IMG/VR virus record: IMGVR_UViG_3300035660_000091
Location: 1-22,363 of that record
Reading direction: 5' to 3' (one strand)
Length of the DNA stretch: 22,363 bases
DNA from: a virus
Shown here: positions 5,436 through 13,731 of the stretch, one piece after another
How the letters are laid out: the number at the start of each line of letters is the position of its first letter
Position numbering within the stretch: the first letter of the stretch is position 1
The notes under the pieces: model-generated
Database searches by the model: none
Told to the model about the DNA's origin: nothing
What the model saw: only the letters and a program-made list of their open reading frames with translations
Program-made: the position numbers and the translations under genes

Positions 5436-6407
5436 GTGGCAGGTCAAGTCTGGGCAGTGAATTCGCTCGGCGGCTTCATGTATAGCCGTCAGTTGAGCAA
5501 CGTGCTCCGCATGGCAGTCCAACCGCTGGTGAAGTTTCGCCAGTTTGCGGACGTCCGTGACGCGAGTCAACAAGGCAAGAAGAAGGGTGACATCTTCACG
5601 TGGGACGTGTTCTCGGATGTTGCATCGGCTGGTGGCGTGCTTTCGGAAACGAACACAATGCCTGAGACCAACTTCACCATCGTTCAGGGCACCCTGACGA
5701 TGACGGAAGCTGGTAACTCGGTCCCCTACTCGGGCAAGTTGGACAACCTGTCCAAGTTCCCGGTGATGGAACTGATTCAGAAGGTTCTCAAGAACGACGC
5801 CGTCAAGACGTTCGACCGTCTTGCATGGACGCAATTCAACCAGACCCTCCTGCGTGCAATACCCACGGCGGGCACGGATACGGCGGCAGTCACGCTGTAC
5901 ACGAACGGCACGGTGACCGGCACGAACAGCATCGCCTACGGCAATGCACACGCCAAGTCGATCGTCGACACGATGAAGGAACGGAACATCCCGGCCTACC
6001 TCGGCGATGATTACTATGCCCTGGCATGGCCGACGACGCTGCGCTCGTTCAAGAACAACCTGGAAACGATCCACCAGTATTCGGACACCGGCTTCAAGTT
6101 GATCATGAACGGCGAAATCGGGCGTTACGAAAACGTTCGCTACGTCGAGCAGACCAACATCGCCAAGGGAACCGGCACGGACGGCATCACGCAGACTCTG
6201 TGGACCAACGGCAAGTCGGACTGGATTTTCTTCTTCGGCAACGACACCGTCGCTGAGGCCATCGCAGTGCCAGAAGAAATGCGGGGTAAGATCCCGAGCG
6301 ATTATGGTCGTTCAAAGGGCGTCGCGTGGTACTACCTCGGCGGCTTCGGCATCGTTCACACTCTCGCTGCGAACACTCGCATCGTGAAGTGGGATTCTCT
6401 GGCTTAA
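5436..6407 (+). CDS. Major capsid protein, N4gp56-like HK97-fold, 323 aa
   Basis: This is the coat protein that builds the icosahedral shell. It lies right after the scaffold gene and has a strong ribosome site, AAGGAGAT at 5424-5431, ahead of a GTG start at 5436. Features of the N4gp56-like family: an N-terminal arm, KKGDIFTWDVF, the L-x-E-TNTMPETNF segment, YSGKLDNLSKFPVMELI leading into the long spine helix, YYALAWPTTLRSFKNNLE, and a C-terminal GEIGRYENVRYVEQTNI typical of the P-domain/A-domain turn. Codon use shifts here toward C/G-ending codons compared with the portal and scaffold genes, as expected of the most highly expressed phage gene. Only the subfamily is uncertain. Confidence 0.9.
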   Translation: MAGQVWAVNSLGGFMYSRQLSNVLRMAVQPLVKFRQFADVRDASQQGKKKGDIFTWDVFSDVASAGGVLSETNTMPETNFTIVQGTLTMTEAGNSVPYSGKLDNLSKFPVMELIQKVLKNDAVKTFDRLAWTQFNQTLLRAIPTAGTDTAAVTLYTNGTVTGTNSIAYGNAHAKSIVDTMKERNIPAYLGDDYYALAWPTTLRSFKNNLETIHQYSDTGFKLIMNGEIGRYENVRYVEQTNIAKGTGTDGITQTLWTNGKSDWIFFFGNDTVAEAIAVPEEMRGKIPSDYGRSKGVAWYYLGGFGIVHTLAANTRIVKWDSLA

Positions 6408-6420
6408 AGGAGGCCATGAC

Positions 6421-6831
6421 ATGACCACGAAAAACATGGCGTATGACCATCCGGCGTATCAGGCCGTTTTGGCTGTTCCCTCGGGCAACCTTGTCGGGTC
6501 TGGTGGCACGGGCACGAAGATGGCGGCATTCACCGCTATGCAGGTCAAGGCGGTGCAGATCGCTACGACCGTGCTCAGCACGTCGGCAGACGTCATCAGT
6601 GTTGTGAAGGTGACCGGCGTGGGCGGCACTAACACGACGACGAGCACGACTGCATACGGAACGATGGGTTCAGGGGCGTACATCGGTAACATGACCCCGA
6701 CCTTGGCTGCGAACCAAGTGTCCCTTCAGCAAGGCGATGTGTTCTATGCCCAGAAGGGCACGGACGCAACGGGCACCTTCGTTGGGATGATCGAACTCGC
6801 GATCCTTCCGTTGTCCAACGTCACTTCCTAA
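6421..6831 (+). CDS. Putative head decoration/stabilisation protein, 136 aa
   Basis: An AAAGGAGG site right behind the coat stop places ATG 6421 at ideal spacing; ATG 6416 gives only two codons and is not a start. The 136-residue product is rich in Thr, Val, Gly and Ala with alternating strand pattern, so it is probably all-beta: VLAVPSGNLVGSGGTGTKMA, AVQIATTVLSTSADVISVVKVTGVGG, then a Thr-rich loop, and VFYAQKGTDATGTFVGMIEL. It keeps the coat gene's codon bias, suggesting comparably high expression. Head decoration (cement) or head-fibre proteins commonly sit directly after the coat gene and are small and beta-rich, so that is my call. I do not recognise a named family. Confidence 0.55.
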   Translation: MTTKNMAYDHPAYQAVLAVPSGNLVGSGGTGTKMAAFTAMQVKAVQIATTVLSTSADVISVVKVTGVGGTNTTTSTTAYGTMGSGAYIGNMTPTLAANQVSLQQGDVFYAQKGTDATGTFVGMIELAILPLSNVTS

Positions 6832-6842
6832 GGAGAAGCAGC

Positions 6843-7193
6843 ATGGCAAGCAAGCGCGGAAATGTTCCTGGCCAAAGCGCAGGCCAGATGGCGGGGGAGG
6901 GCGGCAAGGAAAAGTTTGCTGAGCCCTTCGGTGGCGGCATGCCGAAGACCATCGGTGGTCTCGGTGGCCTGCACAACGATATTGGCGAGAAGTCTGGGTT
7001 CCAGACGGATGGCTACATCGACAAGCAAGGCACCCCCTACGGCGAGGCTGCGAAGTTCAACTTCCTGCCGCCCGGTATGGACATCAGCGACCAGGAGAAT
7101 GCGGAAATCCACACGATGCCGCTCAGGAAGCTGGTTGCCGAGTCCTACCCCGGCGACGGTTGGACTCCTGCCCCCCGTGACATCGCTGAGTAA
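6843..7193 (+). CDS. Small virion-associated hypothetical protein A, 116 aa (PPGM-x-I-x-DQ motif)
   Basis: A TAAGGAGA site precedes ATG 6843. The protein is glycine-rich and mostly without regular structure: MASKRGNVPGQSAGQMAGEG, then FGGGMPKTIGGLGGLHNDIG, and the motif FNFLPPGMDISDQ near residues 76-88, followed by an acidic MPLRKLVAESYPGDGW tail. The same F-N-x-x-PPGM-x-I-x-DQ core occurs in the next gene (FNAMPPGMEIADQ), so the two look like diverged tandem paralogues. Its codon bias resembles the coat gene, suggesting high expression. I know no family; a minor head protein or coat-binding linear-motif protein is possible. Confidence 0.6.
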   Translation: MASKRGNVPGQSAGQMAGEGGKEKFAEPFGGGMPKTIGGLGGLHNDIGEKSGFQTDGYIDKQGTPYGEAAKFNFLPPGMDISDQENAEIHTMPLRKLVAESYPGDGWTPAPRDIAE

Positions 7194-7635: not shown

Positions 7636-9366
7636 GTGGTAATGCCCCTCAGTGCGTACATACATCGTACGCAGCTAACTGATGCAAACGGTGTACAGAC
7701 CGAAAACGTTAATCAGGTAGCGACCCTAGTCTGGGACAGCATTGGTCTTGCCTGGGTCAAAGCTACTCAGGCTGGAGGGGGCGGGGGCGGCGGAACGCAA
7801 TATGCCGAGGGAACAACCATCAACCCGGCAACGGGTACGGTGGCCCTTGGAAAGAACACGTCAAATGTTGTATCCGCCCTTTCGCTTGATGGGTCCGGTA
7901 ATCTTAACGTAAACCTTGCCGCAGGGACTATCTCTGGCGGCAATGCTGCTGCGTCTCCGACTGGCGCGGCTGTTCCAGCGAGCGCGGGCTATACGGGATG
8001 GAAGTCTGGTGCGAATCTAGTTGGTGTAGAGCTAACTAACGCCCTCCCCGTTCAGCCCGGGACAGGTGCGGTCTTCCCTGCGGGGCAGAATGCCCTGATT
8101 TCCACCAACAATAGCAGCACTACTCCTCTCGGTGCTGGAGGCACATTCACAGGTACTTCTGAGGACATCACAGGATACTCCACTATCGGGATAATGGCCT
8201 TTTCCGATAAGGCTGGCACAGTATTTATTGATTACTCAACTAATAGCACGAATTGGGACTATACCGATAGTATCCCGCTGGCAGCGAACACGGCAATAAC
8301 GATTCAGAACGAGCCGCACGGGCAATACTATCGCATAAGGCTTGTGAATGGTGGCGTAGCGCAGGGTGTCTTGCGCTTGCAAACCATCTATCAGTCTCTG
8401 GCAATGACCCAGAACAAGGTGCAGATATCGGACACCTTGGCTGCGAACGATACTGCCATACTGACCAAGGGTGTCATCGTCGGGGTTACTACCGGAGGCG
8501 GTGGCGGATACGTTGATGTAAAGGTTAATCCAAGTGGCGCACTGACCGCAGACGTCACACAATCCGGGACTTGGACTGTTCAGCAAGGCACGCCGCCGTG
8601 GTCGGTATCACAGTCTGGCGCGTGGAGCATAGGCAGAACCTGGGCGCTGAGCAGTGGCACTGATTCTGTTACCGCTATCGGCACATTCTGGCAGGCTACT
8701 CAGCCCGTAAGCGGCCCGCTGACGGATACGCAACTTCGCCTGACTCCGGTGCCAGTAAGCGGAACATTCTGGCAGGCTACTCAACCCGTAAGCGGCACAT
8801 TCTGGCAGGCTACGCAACCCGTATCGCTGGCGTCTACTACCATCACGGGGTCTGTAGCAGTCACCGGGCCGCTTACAGACACGCAACTTCGTGCGTCAGC
8901 GGTGCCCGTGTCGTTGGCATCAACTACGATTACGGGATCGGTTGCAGTCACTGGCCCACTGACCGATACTCAACTGCGGGCGTCGGCTGTACCTGTTAGT
9001 CTTGCGTCCACGACCATCACTGGATCGGTTGCAGTCACCGGTCCCCTTACAGACGCTCAACTTCGCGCCACGCCAGTACCGACCAAAGAAACACGATCTA
9101 CAGCCAATGCGCGAACTAGCGTTGCGGGCGCTGCGGCGGATACTCTCATTCTGGCGTCGAACGCTAACCGACTAGGAGCTACGGTCTACAATGACTCTGC
9201 GGCAATCTTGTATCTATCGCTCGGTACTGCTGCTGCGTCTACGACTGACTTCACGGTAAAGATGGTGGCGGACGCGTATTATGAAGTGCCCTTCGGCTAC
9301 ACAGGTGCGATTAGAGGCATATGGGCATCTGCTACAGGCAGTGCTCGCGTCGGGGAGATTACCTAA
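7636..9366 (+). CDS. Repeat-containing phage virion/tail-fibre-type protein, 576 aa
   Basis: A large beta-rich structural protein. Residues 1-45 form a small N-terminal domain, followed by a seven-glycine linker. The middle is Thr/Ser/Gly/Ala-rich, including a probable beta-sandwich around YSTIGIMAFSDKAGTVFIDY and YYRIRLVNGG. Residues ~345-482 hold two repeat types: GTFWQATQPVSG three times and a 29-residue SLASTTITGSVAVTGPLTD unit three times. A compact C-terminal domain with ATVYNDSAAILYLSLGTAAAS and YYEVPFGYTGAIRGIWASA follows, a pattern I know from many phage virion proteins. Host-contact fibre or head-surface protein is plausible. The start is GTG 7636 or ATG 7642; a weak GAGA site at 7624 slightly favours 7636. 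Confidence 0.7.
   Translation: MVMPLSAYIHRTQLTDANGVQTENVNQVATLVWDSIGLAWVKATQAGGGGGGGTQYAEGTTINPATGTVALGKNTSNVVSALSLDGSGNLNVNLAAGTISGGNAAASPTGAAVPASAGYTGWKSGANLVGVELTNALPVQPGTGAVFPAGQNALISTNNSSTTPLGAGGTFTGTSEDITGYSTIGIMAFSDKAGTVFIDYSTNSTNWDYTDSIPLAANTAITIQNEPHGQYYRIRLVNGGVAQGVLRLQTIYQSLAMTQNKVQISDTLAANDTAILTKGVIVGVTTGGGGGYVDVKVNPSGALTADVTQSGTWTVQQGTPPWSVSQSGAWSIGRTWALSSGTDSVTAIGTFWQATQPVSGPLTDTQLRLTPVPVSGTFWQATQPVSGTFWQATQPVSLASTTITGSVAVTGPLTDTQLRASAVPVSLASTTITGSVAVTGPLTDTQLRASAVPVSLASTTITGSVAVTGPLTDAQLRATPVPTKETRSTANARTSVAGAAADTLILASNANRLGATVYNDSAAILYLSLGTAAASTTDFTVKMVADAYYEVPFGYTGAIRGIWASATGSARVGEIT
8680..8820 (+). repeat. Three FWQATQPV-type coding repeats
   Basis: The segment GTFWQATQPVSG begins at 8680, 8761 and 8794, the last copy running straight into the longer repeat array. 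Copies one and two are separated by a diverged single GPLTDTQLRLTPVPVSG unit. At DNA level the FWQATQPV core (ACATTCTGGCAGGCTAC and following bases) is almost identical between copies, with single third-position changes. Such motifs recur in phage fibre-like proteins and probably form beta turns in a repetitive shaft. Confidence 0.85.
8821..9081 (+). repeat. Three tandem 87-bp coding repeats, conserved as protein but not as DNA
   Basis: Units lie at 8821-8907, 8908-8994 and 8995-9081, each encoding a 29-residue V-SLASTTITGSVAVTGPLTD-x-QLRA-x-x-VP unit. Units one and two are identical in all 29 residues, yet I count 22 of 29 codons that differ, all synonymously. Unit three has three residue changes, all at the C-terminal end (T to A, S to T, A to P). 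The units have no gap between them and form a regular shaft-like array. Confidence 0.9.
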
Positions 9367-9797: not shown

Positions 9798-10601
9798 ATG
9801 TCTCAAATTCTCGACGCACGCGGCAACCCATTCCAAGGGTCGCTTGACTCTATTACTGGTGAGACGCTGACAGATGCTCGTGCAGCATCAGCTACACTCG
9901 CAGCACTTAATGCTGAGTCCCTCATTGATATTCAGGGTAAGGCAGTTGTCCGCGTAGACATACGGACTGCGGCTGGTGCTCTTACAGTAGTTGCGGAAGC
10001 TACTGTAGATGGTACGAATTACTTCGCGCTGCCAATGTTTGCAGAGCAGCAACTCCTTGTTGCTGCCATTGTTCAAGAAACATTCGTTGCTAGTGTCGTA
10101 GTTGCTACAACTACTTCCGGCACATATATTGTTGGAGTTAGTGGATTCCGCCGTATGCGGATAAGGGTTTCCGCATATACTTCGGGGAATATCATAGTTA
10201 CTCTGCGGGGTAGCGCGGCGGATGAGATTATCAATGTACGCCTCCTTCCCTCCAATCTTCATGTTACGGCTACTGCTGCGGCGAACACTGCCGCAACGGC
10301 GACGCTTCCTGCTGTGGCGGGGTTGTTCCACTATATTACGCACATCAACATCGTGCGCAATGCCACGGCAGCACTTGCGGGTACAGCGACGCTCATTCAC
10401 ACTAGCACGAATCTACCGGGTACTCCAGCGTGGTCGGTAGGTAATGCAATGGTTGCAGGGGGCACGCAAGAAGATGTAAACTATACCCCAACCACACCGC
10501 TGAAGTCTTCGGTCGCAGGTACGGCGACGACAGTCGTAGCGGCGGCTGCTGGTCTTGCGGTATTGGGTCGGGTCAACGTTAGTTATTATCTGGGCGCCTA
10601 A
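9798..10601 (+). CDS. Phage virion-associated beta-rich protein, 267 aa
   Basis: The gene starts four bases after the previous stop with a weak AGGG site. The 267-residue product has two apparent halves. The first (residues ~45-150) looks like a beta-sandwich, with VVRVDIRTAAGALTVVAEATVDGTNY and MRIRVSAYTSGNIIVTLRGS, similar to modules seen in phage baseplate or fibre proteins. The second half is Ala/Thr-rich and contains HYITHINIVRNATAALAG and a C-terminal VLGRVNVSYYLGA. The lack of charge and the alternating strand pattern suit a structural protein. There is no signal peptide. It most likely works with the two preceding proteins; the exact role is unknown. Confidence 0.6.
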   Translation: MSQILDARGNPFQGSLDSITGETLTDARAASATLAALNAESLIDIQGKAVVRVDIRTAAGALTVVAEATVDGTNYFALPMFAEQQLLVAAIVQETFVASVVVATTTSGTYIVGVSGFRRMRIRVSAYTSGNIIVTLRGSAADEIINVRLLPSNLHVTATAAANTAATATLPAVAGLFHYITHINIVRNATAALAGTATLIHTSTNLPGTPAWSVGNAMVAGGTQEDVNYTPTTPLKSSVAGTATTVVAAAAGLAVLGRVNVSYYLGA

Positions 10602-10642
10602 TAAGCATCCATGTCTCTGTGAAGTTCAACCTAAGGATTATC

Positions 10643-10996
10643 ATGAAACACAGTATTCTCGCACTCTCTCTCGCACTTGTGGCTGCTATTCCGGCCTACG
10701 CGGCGAATCAGGCTGTACTCGCGTGGACCGCACCAACGACCTACGAGGACGGCACGCCGATCGGCGCTGGCCTGACGTTCAACGTGTACCAAGGTCTGCA
10801 GGGAGCGGCTAAGGTCAAAGGTCCGAACGTGAGCGCCACCACGGTCACGATCAACACCGGCCTGCTCTCAGGCAAGACCTACTGCTGGAACGTCACCTCG
10901 GCCCTTAACTCGTTGGAGAGCGTGCCTTCCAACGAAGCGTGCAAGACCTTTCCGCAAAGCGCACCGTCCGCACCGGCGTCACTCACAGCACAATAG
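10643..10996 (+). CDS. Secreted Fn3-like small protein with signal peptide, 117 aa
   Basis: ATG 10643 follows TAAGGA at 5-base spacing; a GTG at 10619 would only add eight residues in front of the signal. The N-terminus MKHSILALSLALVAAIPAYA is a classical Sec signal with a good cleavage site after AYA (residue 20). The mature ~97 residues look like one fibronectin type III-like domain: AVLAWTAPTTYEDGTPI, TFNVYQG, a TGLLSGKTYCWNVTSA strand, and VPSNEACKTF. The two cysteines could pair in the periplasm. About three quarters of codons in the mature part end in G or C by hand count, like the coat gene and unlike the flanking genes. It may act in the periplasm or at the host surface. Function not established. 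Confidence 0.7.
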   Translation: MKHSILALSLALVAAIPAYAANQAVLAWTAPTTYEDGTPIGAGLTFNVYQGLQGAAKVKGPNVSATTVTINTGLLSGKTYCWNVTSALNSLESVPSNEACKTFPQSAPSAPASLTAQ

Positions 10997-11264: not shown

Positions 11265-11630
11265 GTGAGCAAACTAGACCGAGAGCGCCCCTATGCCACG
11301 ATTGTTGGCCACTCCATTGCTCGGTATGAGCAAAATGGGCTTCTGTATGCGGGAAATGATGAGCTGATTGGCACACCTAAGACAGTCGCAGCCAGTGTGC
11401 AGGTTGAGGATAGTTCCCGCATAATGACTGATAGTCTTGCTGGTGCGATGCTTTTTCTTAGAAATGTGCTGAAGGAAGGACCACTTTCTAAGGCTGTCGT
11501 GTACAAAGAGTCAGAAAACAACCTTCAGTTTTGGGATAGCGTGCGTGATGCAGCCTTAGAGTTGAAAGTACACAAGTTCACCTATAAGGGCAACGAAATG
11601 TGGAAATTGCCAGATGAGGAGATGGCGTGA
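11265..11630 (+). CDS. Hypothetical phage protein, 121 aa
   Basis: It starts at GTG 11265 with TTAGGAGT upstream. The N-terminal part RPYATIVGHSIARYEQNGLLYAG looks like a small strand-rich domain carrying an aromatic ARYEQ-x-G-x-x-Y segment found in other small phage proteins of unknown role. A helix (LAGAMLFLRNVLKEGPL) and a lysine-rich C-terminal strand (LKVHKFTYKGNEMWKLP) follow. The stop overlaps the GTG start of the methyltransferase gene (GTGA), so the two are probably translated together. No catalytic motif is visible. Confidence 0.6.
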   Translation: MSKLDRERPYATIVGHSIARYEQNGLLYAGNDELIGTPKTVAASVQVEDSSRIMTDSLAGAMLFLRNVLKEGPLSKAVVYKESENNLQFWDSVRDAALELKVHKFTYKGNEMWKLPDEEMA

Positions 11631-12169
11631 AACCACTTTCTCTAGTTGGAGAAGATGCGCAGGAGAGTATGATCCTCGCCGCTTCAACAACCCCACTAGA
11701 AGGATGTATCGTTGAGGTAGGTGTATACCGAGGGGGAACGGCGTGGCAGCTTGCGGCCCTAGCCCGAGTGCGCGGCGTTCCACTCTACTTGTATGACACG
11801 TTCACTGGTATTCCATATCGAAATGTGGAGAAGGGAGATACTCATGTGGTTGGCGATTTTTCGGACGTCAACGAGGCGGAAGTGCGGGCGGCTATACCCG
11901 ACGCCATTTTCTGCAAGGGCGTGTTTCCTGATACCCTTGTGGAAATGGGGCCTATATCATTTGTCCATTGCGATTGTGATCAATACCAAGCAGTTAAGGA
12001 CGTGATCACGCACCTGTACCCAAAACTACTCCCTGGAGGCATGATAGTGTTCGATGACTATGCGTGTCTTGAGGGAGCTACCCGCGCAGTAGACGAACAC
12101 TTCGTGATCACTGAGGCCACAAAGAGCAACAAGGTTCTGATTCGTGCTGGTGTAACGGAGACAAGATAA
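11627..12169 (+). CDS. TylF-like SAM-dependent methyltransferase, 180 aa
   Basis: A class I methyltransferase similar to the TylF/macrocin O-methyltransferase family, whose members methylate sugar hydroxyls. Seen: the SAM-binding glycine loop VEVGVYRGGTAWQLA (residues ~29-43), LYLYDTFTGIP (TylF proteins carry DTF-x-G-[LI]-P), then VHCDCDQYQAVKDVITHLYP and LLPGGMIVFDDY, matching the family's D-x-D-x-Y and PGG-x-x-x-x-DDY region that supplies metal-binding acids. At 180 residues it is shorter than typical TylF proteins (~250) and lacks the usual N-terminal extension. The start is GTG 11627 with GAGGAG upstream, overlapping the previous stop; the TAA overlaps the ATG of the fusion enzyme. Methylation of a sugar or glycan fits; the acceptor is unknown. 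Confidence 0.8.
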   Translation: MKPLSLVGEDAQESMILAASTTPLEGCIVEVGVYRGGTAWQLAALARVRGVPLYLYDTFTGIPYRNVEKGDTHVVGDFSDVNEAEVRAAIPDAIFCKGVFPDTLVEMGPISFVHCDCDQYQAVKDVITHLYPKLLPGGMIVFDDYACLEGATRAVDEHFVITEATKSNKVLIRAGVTETR

Positions 12170-13731
12170 TGGTCTGGAAAATTGACAATCCGCAGTGCAA
12201 CGAGTCTAAGAAGATCGTCTGGGAGGTTGCCCCCTATCTGCGTGGCCGTGGAGTTGATTTGGGAGCGGGGGACTTTAAGATTCTCCCGCACGCCATAAGT
12301 GTGGATAACATGAACCACGCTCAGTTCGGGTTCACTCAAAAGCCGGACATTCTTGCAGATGTGTCAAAGCTAGATATGCTTGCCAGTGGGTCCATGGATT
12401 GGGTCTACAGCAGCCACACGCTAGAGCACGTGGAGGATATGGGAGCCACTCTTCGTGAATGGTGGCGCATTGTCAAGCAGGGTGGTCTGCTGATTATGTA
12501 CCTTCCACATGCGGACTTTTACCCGAACATGGGCCAGCCGGGAGCCAATCCTGACCACAAGCGCGACTTTCGGCCAAAGGACGTCATTGCCGCTATGCCC
12601 TCCCACGGATGGGACTTGCTTGAATGCCAAGAGCGGAACGAAGACTTTGAATACAGCTTCCTTCTGATCTTCAAGAAGATGCCTGGGCGCATAACCTCAG
12701 AGTCTTGGAAGCGCCCCAAACCTACGAAGACTGCGTTAGTTGTCCGATATGGTGCGTTTGGTGACTTAATGCAGGCGTCCAGCGTCATCAAAGGGTTGAA
12801 GGATCAAGGGTTCCATGTGACTCTGCATTGTGCACCCCCTGGATGTGTCGTGGTCGAGACTGACCCTAACATCGACCAGATGATTCTGTTTGATAAGGAT
12901 CAAATACCCAATACTAATCTTGGGGATTTCTGGGCATGGCAGCGTAAGAAATACGACCGCTTTGTCAACCTTAGTGAGTCGGTCGAGGGTTCCTTGCTAG
13001 CCATGCCAGGACGGGCTCAACATGCTTGGTCTCCCGCAGTTCGACACAGCATGATGAGCCGAAACTATCTGGAGTTCCAGCATGCCATTGCTGACGTACC
13101 CCACAAGCCACAGGTCAAATTCTATGCCACATTGGAGGAGAAGGGGTGGGCCAGGAAAGAGCGCGCAAAGATGGGCGCTGGCCCCATTATCATGTATTCG
13201 TTGTCTGGTAGCAGCGTCCATAAGACGTGGGCGGGGCTGGACAATATCATTGCTAGCGCTCTTTTGCACTTCCCAACGTCTCAGATTGTCCTCTGTGGTG
13301 GGCCGGAGTGTGTGATACTGGAGCAAGGGTGGGAGAAAGAGCCCCGCGTAACCGAGACCAGCGGTAAGTGGTCCATCCGTCAAAGTCTGGCGTTCTTGGA
13401 GCAGGCGGACCTTGTGATTGGGCCTGAGACTGGTGTTCTCAACGCTGCATCCTGCATGCCTATGCCGAAGGTCATTTTCCTTAGCCACTCCAGCGAAGAG
13501 AACCTGACCCGAGATTGGGTAAATACATCTGCCCTATGGGCAAAGAAAACCGAGTGTCCTGGCCGGTCTGCGGGTGTGCCTGCCTGTCACCAGATGCATT
13601 ACGGATGGGCGCACTGCAAATTAGATCCAGTGACTAGCACAGCGCAGTGCCAAGCGGATATTTCTGTAGAGGACGCATGGAACGCCGTGGCCTTCCATCT
13701 ACTAGAGCTTACTAAGGAGAAGGTGGCATGA
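12169..13731 (+). CDS. Methyltransferase-GT9 glycosyltransferase fusion protein, 520 aa
   Basis: Two enzyme domains in one chain. Residues ~12-175 are a class I methyltransferase: GVDLGAGDFK (29-37, SAM loop), SSHTLEHVED (81-90, the LEH-x of Methyltransf_11-type enzymes), and WRIVKQGGLLIMYLPH. Residues ~185-515 match glycosyltransferase family 9 (ADP-heptose:LPS heptosyltransferase-like): ALVVRYGAFGDLMQASSVI near the domain start corresponds to the GDxL loop, and VIGPETGVLNAASCMPMPKVIF (~416-437) to the donor-binding D-T-G-x-x-H-x-A region. Here the loop histidine is replaced (ETGVLNAA), so catalysis or donor choice may differ. GGAG (12157) precedes ATG 12169. GT9 enzymes act on lipopolysaccharide core sugars in bacteria; in a phage, a related sugar-nucleotide donor is likely but unproven. 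Confidence 0.8.
   Translation: MVWKIDNPQCNESKKIVWEVAPYLRGRGVDLGAGDFKILPHAISVDNMNHAQFGFTQKPDILADVSKLDMLASGSMDWVYSSHTLEHVEDMGATLREWWRIVKQGGLLIMYLPHADFYPNMGQPGANPDHKRDFRPKDVIAAMPSHGWDLLECQERNEDFEYSFLLIFKKMPGRITSESWKRPKPTKTALVVRYGAFGDLMQASSVIKGLKDQGFHVTLHCAPPGCVVVETDPNIDQMILFDKDQIPNTNLGDFWAWQRKKYDRFVNLSESVEGSLLAMPGRAQHAWSPAVRHSMMSRNYLEFQHAIADVPHKPQVKFYATLEEKGWARKERAKMGAGPIIMYSLSGSSVHKTWAGLDNIIASALLHFPTSQIVLCGGPECVILEQGWEKEPRVTETSGKWSIRQSLAFLEQADLVIGPETGVLNAASCMPMPKVIFLSHSSEENLTRDWVNTSALWAKKTECPGRSAGVPACHQMHYGWAHCKLDPVTSTAQCQADISVEDAWNAVAFHLLELTKEKVA

Follow-up and report, generated by a model that had tools for sequence, protein, structure and literature searches.

A predicted exported Fn3-fold protein with a leader-coupled cysteine pair in uncultivated phages

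The Fn3-like gene and its neighbourhood

The window, a stretch of 22,363 nucleotides covering positions 1 to 22,363 of the IMG/VR virus record IMGVR_UViG_3300035660_000091, carries in its virion-gene region a short gene whose product is predicted to be exported and to consist of a single Fn3-like domain (Table 1). The open reading frame, its Sec-like signal with cleavage after AYA and its two cysteines are as a first-pass annotation of the sequence had described them. The N-terminus (MKHSILALSLALVAAIPAYA, followed by ANQ after the predicted cut) comprises a basic n-region, a hydrophobic core and an AXA site, and is recognized as a signal peptide with n-, h- and c-regions by a rule-based test; the mature part has 97 residues, with C81 and C100 as its two cysteines. 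Comparison with the 94% identical copy in L002 (dN 0.033, dS 0.224; NG86, whole gene) indicates that the gene is under purifying selection, the leader being less constrained than the mature part (NG86). A near-identical copy is also present in a sister contig of 30.7 kb. No local promoter or terminator was detected around the window gene.

Table 1. Features of the Fn3-like gene and the codon-usage reference in the window
Feature	Position	Strand	Basis
CDS, predicted exported single Fn3-fold protein, 117 aa	10643..10996	+	ORF; relatives; purifying selection against L002
Shine-Dalgarno AAGGA, 5 nt before ATG	10633..10637	+	Sequence; same context in L002
Signal peptide, predicted cleavage after AYA (residue 20)	10643..10702	+	Sequence; leader in nearly all relatives
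Mature Fn3-like domain, strands B to G, no A strand	10703..10954	+	AlphaFold model; Foldseek and VIA-align Fn3 matches
Codon of C81 (strand F)	10883..10885	+	Sequence, model; Cys pair conserved in family
Codon of C100 (strand G)	10940..10942	+	Sequence, model; Cys pair conserved in family
C-terminal tail QSAPSAPASLTAQ, Fn3 A-strand-like	10955..10993	+	Unpaired in monomer model; L022 tandem alignment
Major capsid protein and next gene (reference for coat-like codons)	5436..6831	+	phrog_1357; GC3 0.77, 0.75

The gene is preceded by a structural-zone gene (9798-10601) and followed, still within the virion region, by a small accessory island encoding proteins of 83 and 121 residues, a TylF-type methyltransferase and a product that combines a methyltransferase with a GT9 (heptosyltransferase) domain. 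The last two, at 11627-13731, are unmatched in the equivalent region of Vibrio phage D279. The capsid proteins of D279 and of the window phage are 54% identical, and that of the window phage matches the major head protein family phrog_1357 with an E value of 2e-18. Upstream, at 7636-9366, a 576-residue protein contains repeated GTFWQATQPVSG / LASTTITGSVAVTGPLTDTQLR segments and weakly matches a PHROG of unknown function.

About three quarters of the codons had been counted as ending in G or C, unlike those of the neighbours, and a coat-like codon bias had been noted. Both observations were confirmed, with a GC3 of 0.71 compared to 0.45-0.61 in the flanking genes, 0.77 in the major capsid gene and 0.75 in the two genes that follow it. 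Using the capsid gene and its neighbour as reference and holding amino-acid composition fixed, the likeness to capsid codon usage reached z = 5.2 relative to the other genes of the phage, comparable values being restricted to the coat cluster (15.5, 8.6 and, for the gene at 6843, 5.5). This value falls to 2.2 once GC3 is matched; GC3 alone accounts for about half of the signal, and part of the bias could thus reflect base composition instead of selection for expression. From its codon usage, the protein is probably abundant in this phage. Codon bias as a conserved trait of the family was considered and rejected, since the Fn3 genes of related phages are not systematically coat-like and coat-like codon use is absent in the relatives with a recognized capsid gene. 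The gene at 6843-7193, located after the capsid cluster, combines coat-like codons with the lack of any PHROG match, and its product is possibly an abundant virion protein.

The Fn3 family: distribution, fold and leader

More than 40 single-domain relatives were identified, all of them in IMG/VR contigs of uncultivated phages. A tblastn search of 50,697 named phage records with six family members returned no full-length relative, the few matches being partial, Fn3-like and mostly located in tail proteins. The window protein had nothing significant in PHROGs and Pfam, a plasmid search with one family member returned nothing, and a scan of bacterial genomes with a single pattern, of limited sensitivity, retrieved just two large Bacteroidetes Fn3 proteins. 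Acquisition from a bacterium, which had been suggested from the sequence, is not supported by these searches, as they placed the relatives in viral contigs only. While exported phage envelope proteins and phage Fn3 domains are both already known, no literature on secreted Fn3 phage proteins was found and, as far as these searches show, an exported stand-alone Fn3 family devoid of the A strand is apparently undescribed.

The Fn3-like domain proposed from the sequence is supported by structure prediction. The AlphaFold model has a pLDDT of 84 (92-95 in the domain blocks, strands B to G), and its PDB matches in Foldseek and VIA-align, which reach Z about 10 with an rmsd close to 2 in most cases over 75-84 residues, are Fn3 domains. 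According to this model, the window protein is an Fn3 beta-sandwich. At the gathering score of Pfam fn3 (cut-off 25) it gives no hit, and its relatives L050 and L051 score 27.6 and 29.7. In five relatives, the fn3 match begins at profile position 11-13 of 84, and structural alignments start only around residue 20 of known Fn3 domains, which indicates that no A strand follows the leader. Instead of a full A-G set with an N-terminal A strand, a similar segment is found at the C-terminus. In most members, the C-terminus is a tail of the type P.AP..ITVxx, a loose version of this pattern fitting 35 of 44 members compared to 28% of shuffled tails, and the tail of the window protein is unpaired in the monomer model. 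In L022, a natural two-domain relative, the equivalent segment aligns with the interdomain linker and is predicted as a strand (145-151) that immediately precedes the second domain's strand B (158-163). The absence of an A strand, together with an A-strand-like tail, makes head-to-tail strand exchange possible, and on these models it is plausible that the tail serves as A strand for another copy.

Variations on the single-domain architecture also occur. Single Fn3-like genes are found as tandem pairs in L096 (5623-5970 and 5995-6297), L106 (5604-5912 and 5923-6291) and L102 (5953-6312 and 6325-6585). In L033, L034, L039 and L098, a C-terminal extension of about 70 residues brings a second cysteine pair, for a total of four cysteines.

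A leader was detected by the rule-based test in 38 of the 44 family members, compared to 43 of 696 other genes (6%) from 14 related contigs, or 17 of 243 in the class of 90-200 residues. Three of the six misses (L096, L109 and L120) are leaderless. L046 has no early basic residue but a lipobox-like leader, L049 is read as a matter of start-codon choice and L119 has a hydrophobic N-terminus which nevertheless fails the rule. Lipobox-like leaders, present in L046, L005 and L030 and absent from the window protein sequence, would point to an envelope location. Two cysteines are kept in the mature domain of nearly all leader-bearing members, the exceptions being L106 and L111, which have none, and L119, whose two cysteines are both in the tail. 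In L004, L040, L046 and L100, the strand-F cysteine is replaced and a new one appears in an N-terminal extension, so that the count remains two. In the window protein, the pair sits on adjacent strands, F and G, and is likely to form a cross-strand disulfide in the mature domain. The first-pass annotation had held that relatives lacking the signal peptide would speak against secretion. Three such relatives do occur, but all of them are devoid of cysteine, which in fact supports the export of the leader-bearing members.

Leader-bearing gp80 proteins as a second case

L004 and L046 were found, by chance, to carry as well homologs of podophage GP4 gp80 that bear a leader. This virion-type family is unrelated to the Fn3 family and provided an unplanned control. 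Its members are annotated as podophage GP4 fiber I or as head protein (phrog_240), and the seven homologs from named phages all lack both the leader and the internal cysteine pair. Among viral contigs, nine of the ten leader-bearing gp80 proteins have exactly two domain cysteines, while none of the 79 leaderless ones has two or more (p = 1.6e-11, or 2.9e-8 at 70% non-redundancy; as the counted sequences are related, these values overstate independence even after filtering). The cysteines occupy two different position pairs, suggesting at least two origins. Like the window protein, these are short late phage proteins with a Sec-like leader and a matching cysteine pair; they differ by belonging to an unrelated sequence family, most members of which have neither leader nor cysteines. 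The leader-bearing protein is the only gp80 copy in its contig. Examples (PF23140) are located at L004:3964-4488, L046:5755-6396, L125:1411-1926 and L137:1501-2025, among others. That exported Fn3 and gp80 proteins always occur together was considered and discarded, as only one of the 29 gp80 contigs searched (an exported-gp80 contig) had an Fn3 hit. Within the searches made here, exported gp80 proteins and the coupled gain of leader and cysteines are apparently undescribed.

The assumption that virion-type proteins lack Sec signals is too strong, since gp80-family (head/fiber) proteins carry them in several phages. The coupling of leader and cysteine pair in two unrelated families makes export to an oxidizing compartment very likely. 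Secretion, as initially proposed, is consistent with this coupling and with the leader found in nearly all relatives, and Sec export of the window protein is predicted with high confidence. More broadly, the leader-linked gain or loss of a cysteine pair is a signature of export readable from sequence alone, which could help to uncover further phage proteins of this kind.

Candidate roles for the predicted exported domain

The overall explanation, given an even chance of being correct, is that of a late exported periplasmic Fn3 binder whose most likely role is superinfection exclusion. The late accessory protein would be exported by Sec to the periplasm, where, once the leader is cut after AYA, its single Fn3-like domain would fold with an F-G cross-strand disulfide. 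As codon use suggests, it would be made at near-coat levels in this phage, and an abundant small periplasmic beta-domain is best explained as a stoichiometric binder and not as an enzyme. Such a binder would occupy an envelope receptor, or the tail or lysozyme of an incoming phage, in the manner of T4 Spackle and T5 Llp. What the data support in this explanation is the presence of the leader, the covarying cysteines, the fold and the codon bias; actual export, the disulfide, abundance and the target are inferred. Of the two roles proposed from the sequence, superinfection exclusion stays a candidate through the Spackle and Llp precedents, and release through the lysis genes that neighbour the Fn3 gene in several relatives.

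Spackle (PMC7677548) and Llp (PMC9586334) show that proteins of this kind can exclude superinfecting phages. T4 Spackle is a cleaved, disulfide-bonded periplasmic protein and, as predicted here for the window protein, a small phage protein with a cleaved export signal, two cysteines and no lipid anchor (PMC7677548). However, it is an alpha-helical bundle encoded by an early gene, whereas the window protein is modelled as an all-beta sandwich, thus outside the Spackle family of helical bundles that bind tail lysozyme, and its gene is located with late genes. T5 Llp, a lipoprotein of the periplasm (PMC9586334), along with Cor, resembles the window protein as a small exported phage protein, stoichiometric in the envelope (predicted for the latter); the window protein differs by having no lipobox, although some relatives (L005, L030, L046) may have one. 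Superinfection exclusion itself ranks first among the functions considered but is only a tentative assignment, rather improbable taken singly. Against it, the window gene is located among virion genes and does not adjoin a recognized receptor-binding gene, and the lysis-gene neighbours of several relatives could indicate a lysis role instead.

Indeed, the place of the Fn3 gene varies among relatives, from the portal region to the fibre region or the lysis genes. Nine contigs hold a family member together with a lysozyme, GH108 or M15 domain, and in these the two are separated by 232-941 bp (combined p of 4e-4 over eight contigs, a value biased by short contigs and by the few families searched). 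In L045, the Fn3 gene directly follows an Rz-like spanin gene containing an Rz1-like lipoprotein frame, and in L105 it is preceded by a lysozyme and followed by an Rz-like gene. These Rz-like spanins, with a third one in the phage of L049, point to a Gram-negative host context. An exported Fn3 protein acting late in infection on holin, endolysin, spanin or peptidoglycan, as a lysis accessory or regulator, has a precedent in T4 antiholin RI, a secreted lysis regulator which is periplasmic with a cleavable signal peptide, as predicted for the window protein (PMC8385771). Accessory genes are, however, frequently inserted near lysis cassettes regardless of their function, and most relatives, including those of the window phage and of L049, are not beside recognized lysis genes; in addition, searches of the 30.7-kb sister contig with PF00959, PF05838, PF13539 and PF01510 revealed no endolysin. 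Lambda bor is an example of an accessory gene beside a lysis cassette, and RI is not known to be an Fn3 protein. A lysis role is thus unlikely, if less so than the remaining alternatives. Substitution for the outer spanin Rz1 was rejected, as L045 has its own Rz1-like frame and the window protein has no lipobox.

Virions commonly carry Fn3/Ig-like domains as decorations. The window protein could likewise decorate virions after having formed its disulfide in the periplasm, attaching to them as lysis mixes the compartments. The frequent location of its relatives among structural genes, the coat-like codon use of the window gene and the leader-bearing, cysteine-paired members of the virion-type gp80 family are consistent with this reading. 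Known phage Fn3/Ig-like decorations, such as those of major tail proteins, share the Fn3-type fold and are weakly matched by relatives in PHROG and tblastn comparisons, but they are parts of virion proteins assembled in the cytoplasm, in contrast to the predicted exported, stand-alone domain without A strand. Dilution at lysis disfavours such late assembly and no tailed-phage precedent was found in the literature, which leaves this reading quite unlikely.

Still more doubtful is a self-assembling exported fibre, in which the tail of each subunit would fill the A-strand place of the next one to build head-to-tail polymers on the cell. The late starts of the fn3 profile and of the structural alignments, the strand predicted in the L022 linker and the existence of a crystal of an Fn3-type scaffold whose N-terminal strands are swapped (4m6a) are compatible with this model. 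Nevertheless, the tail may instead fold back or bind a different partner, the same architecture is found in leaderless relatives, and the extended L033, L034, L039 and L098 proteins do not terminate at the tail. Finally, an ordinary virion protein with a hydrophobic N-terminus unrelated to export, as the structural-gene position and the three leaderless relatives might suggest, is highly improbable given the AXA sites, the nearly universal leader and the way leader and cysteine pair are coupled in both unrelated families.

A broader proposal, which we regard as speculative and somewhat less probable than superinfection exclusion, is that some tailed phages route virion-type beta domains (Fn3, gp80) via Sec into the oxidizing periplasm in order to form disulfides, the products then either coating the virion or the cell at lysis or acting as soluble decoys, with the Fn3 proteins possibly forming head-to-tail A-strand-exchanged fibres. 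If virion-type proteins are indeed exported, the rule of cytoplasm-only assembly of tailed phages may have exceptions. Only a small number of extracytoplasmic phage proteins are understood, model phages being the main source of those known. The Fn3 family, unmatched among the named phage records, recurs in phages from many metagenomes.

Signal-peptide-like leaders were also observed on other large, fibre-like or unassigned proteins of Fn3-carrying phages. These proteins are encoded at L044:6288-7778, L051:309-4934, L102:6582-7922, L055:17213 onward (G018, 918 aa) and L079:2371 onward (G007:22371, 345 aa).
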